Positions 19,938-40,612 of a DNA stretch of 64,000 bases are shown piece after piece. The notes under the pieces were generated by a model that saw only the letters and a program-made list of their open reading frames with translations, searched no databases and had not been told where the DNA came from. Positions within the stretch are counted from its first letter, which is position 1, and each line of letters begins with the position of its first letter. The DNA is from Seongchinamella unica (lineage in GTDB: Bacteria; Pseudomonadota; Gammaproteobacteria; Pseudomonadales; Halieaceae), in NCBI RefSeq assembly GCF_004354085.1, contig NZ_SMSE01000001.1:735724-799723 (forward strand), given 5' to 3'. Position numbers and translations under genes: made by a program.

Positions 19938-20024
19938 TCAGGCATCACGATCTGCTGTGAATATCGAGCAAGCTGACAAGCAATCGGTGCGAGGCCCACT
20001 TACACCTCAACAGGGACACCCAGA

Positions 20025-37081: not shown

Positions 37082-37297
37082 TGAGGGTCCCGACGCTGTT
37101 TGAAGAAAAGCGCTACATTGAAAAAAAACCTGTAGACGGCCCATTCCCACCGTGCTACATTTTCTTTGCCTGCACATTCCCGTGCCGCAATAATAACTCT
37201 GCTACTCATTATTAAGCTTCACTCTGCTGGCAACGAACGCCCGCGCGCTTTTTTATTTAAACCAATTCCCCCCGAGTCAAAAGCACATCTGTCATCT

Positions 37298-38566
37298 ATG
37301 AATCTTACCGATCTGAAAACCAAACCTACCCAGGAACTCATCGATATCGCCAAGGATATGGGCCTGGACAACATGGCCCGTTCCCGCAAACAGGACATCA
37401 TTTTTGCCATCCTCAAGCGCCACGCCAAAAGCGGCGAGGACATTTACGGCGACGGGGTACTGGAGATTCTCCAGGACGGTTTCGGATTCCTGCGTAGCGC
37501 AGACAGTTCCTACCTGGCGGGACCGGACGACATCTATGTGTCTCCCAGCCAGATTCGCCGTTTCAACCTGCGCACCGGTGACACCATCTCCGGCAAAATC
37601 AGGCCCCCCAAGGACAGCGAGCGTTACTTTGCCCTGCTCAAGGTCGGCGAAATCAACTTCAGCAAGCCGGAAAGCGCCAAGCACAAGATCCTGTTTGAAA
37701 ACCTGACTCCCCTGTTTCCCGACGAGCGCCTGACCCTGGAAAAAGGCAACGGCAGTTCCGAGGATCTCACCGGTCGTATCATCGACCTGGTCGCACCCAT
37801 CGGCAAAGGCCAGCGTGGCCTGCTGGTCGCTCCGCCCAAGGCCGGCAAGACCATCATGATGCAGAACATCGCCCAGGCCATCATCAGCAACAGCCCCGAT
37901 TGCTACATTATTGTGCTATTGATCGACGAGCGTCCGGAAGAAGTGACCGAGATGCAGCGCTCGGTTGGCGCTCGCGGCGCAGAGGTTGTGGCATCGACCT
38001 TCGACGAACCGCCCTCACGCCACGTCCAGGTGGCGGATATGGTGATCGAAAAAGCCAAGCGGCTGGTTGAACACAAAAAAGACGTGGTCATCCTGCTGGA
38101 CTCCATCACCCGCCTGGCCCGCGCCTACAACACGGTGATCCCCTCCTCCGGCAAGGTACTTACCGGTGGTGTCGACGCCCACGCACTGGAACGCCCAAAG
38201 CGCTTCTTTGGAGCGGCCCGCAACATTGAAGAAGGCGGCAGCCTGTCAATTATCGCCACCGCCCTGATCAACACCGGCTCCAAAATGGACGAGGTCATCT
38301 ACGAGGAATTCAAGGGCACCGGCAACATGGAACTGCACCTGGATCGCAAGGTGGCGGAAAAGCGTGTTTACCCGGCCATCAATATCCGTAGCTCCGGCAC
38401 CCGCCGCGAGGAACTGCTTACCGGTGAGGAAGAACTGCAACGCATGTGGATTCTGCGCAAGCTGCTCCACGGTATGGAGGACCTGCCAGCCATTGAGTTC
38501 CTGATCGACAAACTCAAGGACACCAAGACCAACGACGAGTTCTTCATGTCGATGAAGCGCAAGTAA
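37298..38566 (+). CDS. rho: Transcription termination factor Rho
   Basis: 422 residues from the ATG at 37298 (E. coli 419). It starts [15 protein letters not shown]; the RNA-binding cold-shock-like domain is at ~50-120 (GFGFLRS). Walker A PPKAGKTI lies at 178-185, and [13 protein letters not shown] and the Q-loop region follow. Rho is a hexameric RNA helicase that ends transcription. Its leader is long and repeat-containing, consistent with the autoregulated leaders known for rho. Confidence 0.97.
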
Positions 38567-38661
38567 GGCGCACGTTTTCCGACTCACCTGCAGTGGTCCG
38601 GGTATCTCTGACCCACTGGCCCCGATTGTCACCCCGGCGAACGAGGTGCATTGCGCTGCAG

Positions 38662-38699
38662 GCGCAAGAGAGGGTGCCCTGGGGCAAGCGGGGATCCAG
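38662..38699 (+). repeat. Dispersed 38-bp repeat, copy 2
   Basis: 34 of 38 positions match 20025-20062. Confidence 0.75.
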
Positions 38700-38747
38700 A
38701 GACTTCTAACGCCTGAGTTCTGTTCTACACCCGCCGCACCCGCGCGC

Positions 38748-38844
38748 CTGGTCAAGGGGGCGGGGACCGCCAAAAAGCGCACGTCCATGTGCAGGCTCGG
38801 CTGCGACCGTCCCTGGTCGCAGACGCCCCCGCCCCCTTGACCAG
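38748..38844 (+). repeat. Structured repeat element A
   Basis: 97 bp bounded by a perfect 18-bp inverted repeat (38748-38765 and 38827-38844). Inside lie a 34-nt core (38768-38801) identical to that of element B and a 7-bp hairpin TGCGACC-GTCCCT-GGTCGCA (38802-38821). Confidence 0.88.
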
Positions 38845-38926
38845 CCCCGCGTGCGCTAACATCGAGAGGTGCGGAAGCGAATCTGGTTTTTACCCATCGT
38901 TAATGTGCTCGATGCAGCCACAGGGT

Positions 38927-39029
38927 GGCAGTACCTCCCTGTTGGGGACGTCGGCTGCCAGGGACGGCAGCCGCCGAGCCTGCACATGGACGTGCGCTTT
39001 TTGGCGTTCCCCAACAGGGAGGTACTGCC
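38927..39029 (-). repeat. Structured repeat element B (inverted copy of A)
   Basis: 103 bp bounded by a perfect 22-bp inverted repeat (38927-38948 and 39008-39029) unrelated in sequence to that of A. The core at 38973-39006 is the exact reverse complement of A's core. Its hairpin at 38953-38972 has different stem bases (GGCTGCC/GGCAGCC) but the same loop as A when read on the minus strand. Confidence 0.88.
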
Positions 39030-39124
39030 GGCTTGGGGCGACCCCCTGCGAACCAAGGCAACATTGCGCCCATAAACTACAGAGTGTAGTGTCACCCGAC
39101 ACCAACGCATGGAACCAAAAGCGC

Positions 39125-40612
39125 GTGAAATACAAAGACCTCCGCGAATTCATCGCCGAACTGGAACAACGCGGCGAACTGGTGCGGATAACAACCGAAG
39201 TTGATCCCCACCTCGAGATGACCGAGGTCGCCGACCGCACCCTGCGGGCTGGCGGCCCTGCCCTGTTGTTCGAAAATCCCAAAGGCTATGACACCCCGGT
39301 TCTCGCCAACCTGTTTGGCACCGAACAGCGGGTCGCCCTGGGCATGGGCGAGGAAGACATTTCCGCGCTGCGAGAGATTGGAGAATTACTCGCCTACCTG
39401 CGCCAGCCGGATCCCCCCAAGGGCATGCGTGACCTGGTCGACAAGGCTCCGGTACTGAAGCAGGTATTGAACATGGGGCCGAGCACGGTGCGCAATCCCC
39501 CCTGCCAGTACCATGCGAAAACCGGCGATGAAGTTGATCTCTACCAGCTACCCATCCAGACCTGCTGGCCCGGCGATGCCGGGCCCCTGGTGACCTGGCC
39601 GCTGGTGATCACCCGCGGACCGGAAAAGGACCGGCAAAACCTCGGTATTTACCGCATGCAGTTGATCGGCAGGAACAAACTGATCATGCGCTGGCTGTCT
39701 CACCGCGGTGGCGCGCTGGATTATCGGGACTGGCAGCTCAGTCACCCCGGCAAGCGCTACCCGGTCGCCATTGCCCTGGGGGCGGACCCTGCCACCACCC
39801 TGGGGGCGGTCACGCCCATCCCCGACGGCATTTCCGAATACGCCTTTGCCGGACTGTTGCGCGGCAGCAAGACCGAAATCGCGGAATGTTTTACCCCGCT
39901 ATGCCGGGAACACGGACTGCAGGTACCGGCCAGTGCCGAATACATCCTGGAGGGCTACCTGGAACCGGGGGAAGAGGCTGACGAGGGGCCCTTCGGTGAT
40001 CACACCGGGTACTACAACGAGGTGGAACGCTTCCCGGTCTTCACGGTTGCGGCGATCACCCACCGGGAGTCACCGATTTATCACAGCACCTATACCGGCA
40101 GGCCCCCCGACGAGCCCGCAGTGCTGGGTGTCGCTCTCAACGAGGTCTTTATACCCTTGCTGCAAAAGCAGTTTCCTGAAATCAGTGACTTTTACCTGCC
40201 ACCGGAGGGCTGTTCCTACCGCATGGCCGTGGTCACCATGCGCAAGGAATATCCCGGCCACGCCAAACGGGTCATGCTCGGCGTATGGTCCTTCCTGCGC
40301 CAGTTCATGTACACCAAGTTTGTGATCGTGACCGACGAGGATGTGAACGCCCGGGACTGGAAGGATGTCATCTGGGCCATCACCACCCGCATGGATCCGC
40401 AGCGCGACTGTGTTTTTATCGACAACACGCCCATCGACTACCTGGACTTTGCGTCTCCTGTCGCGGGACTCGGGTCCAAGGTGGGCTTGGACGCCACCAA
40501 CAAGTGGCCGGGAGAAACGGATCGCGAATGGGGTGAGCCAATCGCCATGGACGAATCGGTCAAGCAGCGGGTGAACGAAATCTGGTCTGAACTGGGGATC
40601 GGTCCCGGCTGA
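39125..40612 (+). CDS. ubiD: UbiD 3-octaprenyl-4-hydroxybenzoate decarboxylase
   Basis: 495 residues from a GTG at 39125 (KYKDLREF aligns with the UbiD start). The family hallmark segments [33 protein letters not shown] and [20 protein letters not shown] are present. UbiD decarboxylates the ubiquinone precursor using prenylated FMN made by UbiX, which is not in the window. It ends 18 bp from the convergent hemY stop. Confidence 0.96.

Follow-up and report, generated by a model that had tools for sequence, protein, structure and literature searches.

Inverted two-hairpin GGA elements between rho and ubiD of Seongchinamella unica: a dispersed, strand-biased family with MITE-borne relatives and a putative link to CsrA

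Introduction

What are the two inverted, structured copies that lie between rho and ubiD in the marine bacterium Seongchinamella unica, and in which molecule does their fold act? The first-pass annotation had placed elements A and B at 38748-38844 and 38927-39029, facing opposite ways, with an identical core, a GTCCCT inner loop common to both and stems that differ in sequence yet pair perfectly in each copy. It had read this as selection on a folded RNA or single-stranded DNA, either a mobile palindromic element moved by a RAYT-like enzyme or a structured RNA, of a family that it did not recognise. Here, we describe the pair within the window (the whole 64,000-nt stretch of DNA analysed) and the family to which it belongs.

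Results

Two inverted elements in the rho-ubiD intergenic region

Both elements were found at these positions, between rho and ubiD, and their description held in full: opposite orientation, identical core, outer stems of 18 and 22 bp, the GTCCCT loop, and stems unlike in sequence that nevertheless pair. The features, in window coordinates, are the following.

37295..38566, plus strand: rho, the upstream gene (above the cut-off of the NCBIfam rho equivalog; start provisional, the listed open reading frame beginning at 37166)
38736..38856, minus strand (probable functional strand): element A, whole, with a closing stem of about 30 nt per arm including mismatches and two hairpins
38748..38765: outer stem of A, 5' arm on the plus strand, 18 pairs
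38779..38792, minus strand: conserved hairpin of A, loop 38783-38788 reading AUGGAC on the minus strand
38801..38822, minus strand: variable-stem hairpin of A, loop 38809-38814 reading AGGGAC on the minus strand
38827..38844: outer stem of A, 3' arm on the plus strand, 18 pairs
38857..38916: spacer between the inverted elements
38917..39039, plus strand (probable functional strand): element B, whole
38927..38948: outer stem of B, 5' arm on the plus strand, 22 pairs
38952..38973, plus strand: variable-stem hairpin of B, loop 38960-38965 reading AGGGAC
38982..38995, plus strand: conserved hairpin of B, GCAC-AUGGAC-GUGC, loop 38986-38991, followed by GCUUUUU
39008..39029: outer stem of B, 3' arm on the plus strand, 22 pairs
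39125..40612, plus strand: ubiD, the downstream gene (above the cut-off of the NCBIfam 4-hydroxy-3-polyprenylbenzoate decarboxylase model)

The GTG start of ubiD was picked by eye, and its listed open reading frame extends further upstream, into element A. The strands assigned to A (minus) and B (plus) derive from the family-wide mismatch bias described below. A and B share an identical 33-mer (38768-38800 on the plus strand and 38974-39006 on the minus strand), for which 100 shuffles gave no match; by eye, the identity extends to 34 nt. This core contains a second hairpin, GCAC-GTCCAT-GTGC. On both strands, the fold energies of A and B are lower than those of all 200 dinucleotide shuffles (z -6.5 to -9.4). 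With mismatches included, the closing stem extends to about 30 nt per arm (38736-38765 with 38827-38856 in A; 38917-38948 with 39008-39039 in B). The fold is a three-way junction of about 120 nt, and the median aligned closing stem is 30 nt.

No sigma-70-like promoter was found in the intergenic stretch. In both copies CUUUUU follows the conserved GGA hairpin (38778-38793 on the minus strand, 38981-38996 on the plus strand), which scores as terminator-like, and a scan for intrinsic terminators returned three sites (the hairpin of A, that of B and one more) against 0.6 expected. An intrinsic terminator was not adopted as the explanation, given its short stem and the reduced U run of copies in other genomes; an alternative fold of this hairpin and its U run could act as a switch. 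Upstream of element A lies a repeat-like stretch, 38616-38697 (TCACCCCGGCGAA ... GGCGCAAGAGAGGGTGCCCTGGGGCAAGCGGGGATCCAGAG). Part of it is present twice, by eye, at the corresponding place of Seongchinamella sediminis, and a 22-nt copy with three mismatches occurs at window position 20024.

Copies in the genome of S. unica and in relatives

With up to three mismatches, the core pattern occurs at nine places in the genome of S. unica and the reversed core pattern at none. A covariance model (R1) built from ten of the copies in this genome matched 29 places there at E <=10 and 27 at E <0.001. Across 58 genomes, S. unica included, R1 found the element in 31, 28 of them from the family of the window; under the stricter filters of that search S. 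unica retained 26 copies and the richest genome had 48. A and B are two of about 27 copies in this genome. Among congeners, one genome (G001) has no element and another (G007) has one; S. sediminis (G006) is of the same genus, family Halieaceae. A pattern scan of named genomes retrieved 86 stretches, from S. sediminis, Mangrovimicrobium sediminis, Parahaliea aestuarii, Halioglobus japonicus, Halioglobus and Haliea metagenome-assembled genomes (MAGs), and three MAGs named only as Gammaproteobacteria. A second model (R2) matched 47 of 274 Gammaproteobacteria, in 41 of 222 genera, with up to 15 candidates scored per genome. Duplicates and the reverse-strand shadow hits L012 and L046 were removed before unique copies were counted (199, later 206, as used below).

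Two kinds of local elaboration were seen. At the rho-ubiD locus of G003 (L109, 2767-3508), partial and whole copies with a near-identical stem form an array, as if amplified in place. In several Halieaceae copies (L196 5036-5136, L035, L152 and L188) a small hairpin is inserted, by eye, in a hairpin loop; these insertions are of two recurring types, around CCCGATAA...GGGGCAG and CCGGAGCGCCGG.

Stem covariation across the family

The covariation first noticed between A and B extends to the other copies. In the ten copies from S. unica, 95.2% of cells are paired, against 36-41% when the partner is slid; 23 of 33 pairs show two-sided change, with 83 two-sided cells against 24 in shuffles, and none of 500 shuffles was as high on any of five covariation measures. 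In 100 distinct rows from named genomes, aligned by fitting to the covariance model, 96.7% of cells are paired and 28 of 33 pairs show two-sided change (875 cells against 252 in shuffles). Here, 23 of 500 shuffles reached the observed value for further pair types and none did so for the other four measures. Together with the fold, this supports the earlier claim of selection on a folded single strand.

Conserved GGA loops and the relation to TwoAYGGAY

In the model alignments of 206 copies, GGA is present in one loop of 203, in the other loop of 197 and in both of 194. Loops of the form C-A(N)GGA(Y)-G, where N is any base, were found in 196 and 184 copies, respectively, and one loop is the five-nucleotide AGGAC in 69. 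The median distance from GGA to GGA is 26 nt in the 191 copies in which both motifs were found.

At curated thresholds, no Rfam family was detected in the window. Low-threshold matches on the long stem (miRNAs, a CRISPR repeat) look like chance hairpin matches and were rejected. The family is nonetheless not wholly new. At E <=1, TwoAYGGAY (RF01731) matched 12 of 19 genomes, four of the 19 above the cut-off, and none of 14 control genomes; the relative locus L202 also scores over the cut-off. All 12 of its matches in S. unica at that threshold coincide with R1 places, on the GGA strand, the best scoring 42.5 against a gathering cut-off of 43 bits. The window pair itself is unmatched by RF01731 even at E <=10, so the element family is best described as a divergent relative of TwoAYGGAY and not as a formal member. 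In the window, the loop AUGGAC fits the AYGGAY motif; in AGGGAC the second letter is not a pyrimidine, and across the family this letter is free. The likeness includes two adjacent hairpins, A-Y/N-GGA-Y loops, a poorly conserved outer stem and Rfam matches that overlap on the same strand. When CsrA binding was suggested for TwoAYGGAY in 2014 (PMC4333381), this motif, on record since 2010, still counted as a family of 'unknown function'. Neither the core motif nor the suggested connection to CsrA is thus new. The available portions of the TwoAYGGAY accounts are silent on mobility, inverted pairs and tens of copies; new here are the mobility, the copy number and the strand evidence.

CsrA as the likeliest ligand

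Rfam clan CL00106 groups RF01731 with RsmW, and the RsmW model gives a weak, sub-threshold match over element B (16.9 of 52 bits, E 1.1). The elements have the paired GGA hairpin loops, typically of six nucleotides and closed by C-G, that mark strong ligands of CsrA/RsmA. The SELEX consensus for CsrA is RUACARGGAUGU, with ACA and GGA invariant; GGA lay within a hairpin loop in 51 of 55 ligands, and loops of six nucleotides with AC and GU paired occurred in 44 of 55 (PMC7652899). The conserved hairpin is GUAC-AUGGAC-GUAC in many copies, which is the shape of this consensus. A single CsrA dimer is described as spanning two sites separated by 10-63 nt, most favourably by more than 18 (PMC7652899), and by analogy one element probably binds one dimer. 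The closing stems exceed the length needed for a CsrA site.

Recognition of the GGA loops by a protein other than CsrA, in an RNA structured for a different partner, seems to us unlikely. The loop size, the closing pair, the invariant A and GGA, the free N and the paired layout all fit the published CsrA site; against this, one genome (G031) has ten elements and no csrA match at 93% completeness, which reflects either an assembly gap or elements that exist without CsrA. Genes for csrA were detected in 54 of the 58 genomes, that of S. unica at C1:72149. G016, 66% complete, has one element and no csrA match, and several csrA-bearing genomes have no element.

The sRNAs that sequester CsrA/RsmA are few, multi-site sRNA genes. 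The elements resemble CsrB, RsmY, RsmZ and RsmW in having more than one GGA-bearing hairpin loop in each molecule, and differ from them in being many dispersed two-site elements, in the window without a sigma-70-like promoter in the intergenic stretch. The closest published cases are an IS200-derived RNA suggested as a possible CsrA titrator (PMC12594629) and Beggiatoaceae repeats that were judged unlikely CsrA sites (PMC4679880). Of the titles and abstracts listed in searches for CsrA together with MITEs, transposition, dispersed repeats or palindromes, none reported the present link.

Inverted ends and target duplications in relatives

The first-pass proposal of a mobile palindromic element holds for relatives, which have inverted ends and target duplications, and finds no such marks in the window copies. 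In the distant genome G305, one end sequence occurs at 316 places with up to three mismatches (three for a control pattern). From 11 model matches and the first 30 listed of these 316 ends, 32 units with both ends were drawn, 162 to 353 bp long, and those printed centre on the two-hairpin structure. Nine of nine flanking bases are identical on the two sides in 22 of the 32 units and eight of nine in 2, against 2.4% in the control, a rate about that expected from drawing one unit twice. The structure is thus the middle of a miniature inverted-repeat transposable element (MITE) with 9-bp target duplications in this genome. The same build lies inside two other sets of ends in G261 and G124, which makes at least three unlike end types. 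RF01731 at E <=1 gave no match at one locus each of the G305, G261 and G124 MITEs; they are tied to TwoAYGGAY only through model R2 and by eye.

Among named genomes, 28 of 110 copies (nine genomes) are flanked on both sides by the end GTAGTGGCTCAGTTTGAAA, in a search that allowed up to seven mismatches in 19. By genome, these are 16 of 29 copies in 7_bin.18, 9 of 20 in Halioglobus sp. HKST-UBA220, then 2 of 4 and 1 of 4, with 0 of 53 in the other five, among them 0 of 24, 0 of 16 and 0 of 9 in three genomes. Twelve of the 28 have at least seven of eight identical flanking bases, against 0.2% in a control that addresses the flanking bases and not the ends themselves. Spread of the MITE type is thus evident, from inverted ends and duplications of about 9 bp, in G305 and in the two MAGs 7_bin.18 and HKST-UBA220. 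By eye, a filled site (L194) compared with an empty one (L171), with flanks 86.5% alike, shows an insertion bordered by ATTTGCC twice. RF01731 at E <=1 gave no match at the 7_bin.18 loci L194 and L197.

In S. unica, the GTAGTGGCTCAGTTTGAAA-type end is absent at up to two mismatches, and by eye the window pair has neither terminal inverted repeats nor a target-site duplication. Small searches for an autonomous parent found none in two G305 stretches bounded by widely spaced ends, which hold separate MITEs and ordinary genes, nor in L286-L287. End-like matches in G009 and G010 have no recognised transposase alongside, that in G010 lying inside an open reading frame, and a plasmid search with the G305 MITE gave no match. 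The elements are, like MITEs with 9-bp target duplications, short and non-coding, with inverted ends and duplications of about 9 bp in G305, 7_bin.18 and Halioglobus sp. HKST-UBA220; they differ in having as their centre a covarying, strand-biased structure common to unlike ends, and in the window copies in having no recognisable ends.

Some other features of these units were noted by eye. A 70-bp unit in G039 (L289, 1501-1570) has 7_bin.18-type ends and a flanking direct repeat and no hairpin core. In G305 (L251-L280, e.g. L255, L258 and L262), the second hairpin loop often carries nested modules of about 49 nt; these hold GGA-loop hairpins of their own (GCC-AAGGAU-GGC, TTTTGC-AGGA-GCAAAA) in the sense opposite to the host element. 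A G305 MITE core (L234, 1992-2094) gave a weak, sub-threshold match to DUF3800-IV RNA (33.7 of 60.7 bits).

Persistence at orthologous sites

A core found at the centre of MITEs whose ends are of three or more types may serve the transposon and not the host, as a folded barrier in read-through RNA or as the relic of the leader of a CsrA-controlled transposase. We consider this improbable, since orthologous sites keep the core and the pairing although the stems have drifted nearly like the flanks. The rho-ubiD gap is occupied in five of eight genomes of the genus, with unlike stems; in G001, the two genes are only about 14 nt apart. Four genera have a copy at another orthologous site (L127, L185, L196 and, in S. 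unica, the weak and partial L036). Since most orthologous loci had been retrieved for the elements that they contain, occupancy tends to be overestimated, rho-ubiD excepted. Twenty orthologous comparisons, chosen by hand, gave mean identities of 0.57 and 0.54 in the arms, 0.78 in the core and 0.51 and 0.50 in the flanks, against a random-pair baseline of 0.47 and 0.47, 0.74, and 0.47 and 0.47, respectively. With the four comparisons involving L196 excluded (its arm borders were mis-set), 16 remained, with 16-nt arms and 256 stem positions. Of these positions, 123 have changed on both sides and are still Watson-Crick, 20 changed on one side, 7 otherwise, and 106 are unchanged. The fold thus outlasts the letters of its stems, and the core and pairing are retained at the same intergenic place at several orthologous sites. 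New insertions replacing old ones at a hot spot possibly counter this argument and are, in our view, the weaker alternative to upkeep in place.

The tandem, near-identical copies of L205 (401-488 and 563-651, G020) differ by a T-A pair that has become C-G on both arms, by eye, and are a recent compensated change.

Inverted pairs and comparison with REP sequences

The copies are intergenic and often paired: 45 of 50 neighbouring pairs up to 600 nt apart are head-to-head (+-), with gaps of 66-332 nt, so that at least 90 of 206 copies stand in inverted pairs, a minimum in view of the shortness of many fetched stretches. None of the 144 copies with callable neighbours lies within a called gene; the neighbouring genes are convergent for 44, divergent for 22 and tandem for 78, and 102 of all 568 adjacent gene pairs at the copy loci are convergent. 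For this count an in-house codon-usage caller was used, and 55 of 199 copies were left out, their flanks being under 900 nt or one of their sides lacking a called gene. With such a mixed context, no single role in cis fits.

This arrangement recalls REP and REPIN sequences, which are likewise palindromic, intergenic and often in head-to-head pairs, and invites the reading that the element is a selfish repeat of this kind, moved on single-stranded DNA by a RAYT-like Y1 transposase. Matches to Y1_Tnp were detected in 33 of the 58 genomes, that of S. unica included, and folded single-stranded DNA could also yield the one-strand bias reported below. The mobilisation by a RAYT-like enzyme that had first been proposed nonetheless finds no support: of the 28 genomes of the family that carry the element, 13 gave no match to a Y1 transposase at E 0.001, and an element was present in the fetched stretch of none of 14 Y1 loci tested. 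REP sequences are described as short palindromes with a stem of 5-13 bp and a GTAG or CGTC tag at one end (PMC3733652). The present elements have instead a three-way junction of about 120 nt, with a median stem of 30 nt, stem sequences unlike between copies even within one genome, no link to a RAYT gene and, in some relatives, inverted ends with target duplications. Y1 enzymes are not known to make either of the latter. We therefore regard an origin as a REP-like repeat as very improbable.

The GGA strand carries the tolerated mismatches

The arms of 206 unique copies were re-aligned with G·U scored no better than any other mismatch. Read on the GGA strand, their outer stems contain 398 G-bearing mismatches (G·U, G·A and G·G) against 48 of the complementary kinds: G·U 218 against A·C 22, G·A 117 against C·U 17, and G·G 63 against C·C 9. 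A·A and U·U are equal, at 9 each. The G·U to A·C ratio is 60:14 in the first 18 positions and 158:8 further out, 117:12 and 101:10 in the two locus orientations, and 37:6 in the 27 copies of S. unica. Per copy, G·U is in excess in 121, A·C in 8, and 77 are tied (sign test 5e-27, a value that is too small because the copies are related). In the 77 copies whose ungapped inner 18 pairs include just one mismatch or two, the bias persists (G·U 44 against A·C 6, G·A 24 against C·U 7, G·G 9 against C·C 1). In the columns of the model itself, the G·U to A·C ratio is 67:24 in the outer stem and 11:12 in the inner helices.

The flanks 60-200 nt away are not G-rich in the GGA sense (G 0.277, C 0.310). 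The excess specific to wobble over the other G mismatches is small (odds 1.44, p 0.29): the skew of G·A and G·G is as strong as that of G·U, so part of the cause may be a base bias of the stems that is specific to one strand. Clearly, one strand is favoured, and it is the GGA strand, which carries the mismatches that a folded strand tolerates. RNA would be the natural reading of that strand, and folded single-stranded DNA is possible.

Covariation can also arise without selection, if intra-strand template switching perfects palindromes so that stems drift as a unit. The arms do diverge at nearly the pace of the flanks, which is fast for stepwise compensation, and two-sided changes are far above one-sided ones. 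Such a process is strand-symmetric, however, and the lopsidedness of 398 against 48 excludes a strand-symmetric cause; nor would it explain the invariant GGA loops. As the source of the covariation we find it hard to credit, and it may help to keep the stems perfect. Neutral palindrome correction was rejected as it fails to account for the strand bias.

Discussion

The element is folded, its stems covary, its loops are conserved and its mismatches favour one strand. The interpretation that we favour, with restrained confidence, is that it is a folded RNA element that binds a CsrA dimer, dispersed through DNA transposition and maintained because selection acts on the folded strand. A and B would be two inverted, aged copies of this dispersed element, acting through the GGA strand, and the acting molecule would most likely be a folded RNA, preferred over single-stranded DNA as the more natural reading. 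A long closing stem of free sequence would present two hairpins, C-ANGGAY-G (or C-AGGAY-G), with GGAs about 26 nt apart. The likeliest ligand, judged from the published site and the Rfam clan, would be one host CsrA/RsmA dimer, with one subunit per loop.

By the same interpretation, the elements would have spread across the genomes of Gammaproteobacteria as non-autonomous DNA transposons whose cargo is the hairpin core, the ancestors of the window pair presumably included. The recognisable ends would then have been lost, and the core and the pairing, not the stem sequence, retained at an intergenic site. A transcript reading through a copy would gain a CsrA handle. In cis, CsrA might be tethered to the untranslated region (UTR) of that mRNA, and the copies in sum could form a genome-wide CsrA sink. 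With an inverted pair, read-through from either side would yield one element in the GGA sense. For A and B themselves, we infer transcription, CsrA binding, a benefit to the host and a mobile origin.

A broader proposal, to which we hold only tentatively, is that several unrelated MITE families of Gammaproteobacteria regularly carry a CsrA-binding RNA as their cargo, sowing UTR sites that hosts keep, with their fold maintained, and so giving rise to a regulon and a distributed CsrA sink. For TwoAYGGAY, the present results add a strand test and a tie to mobile DNA with target duplications, and genomes with many copies are now named for work on CsrA, among them Seongchinamella, Mangrovimicrobium, Halioglobus and others. 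If CsrA binds, mobile elements would spread ready-made sites for a global regulator and rewire post-transcriptional control, a route for which no report was found among the titles and abstracts listed. If the broader proposal is true, the family would be a transposon-built counterpart of CsrB/RsmZ and would define a new post-transcriptional regulon.
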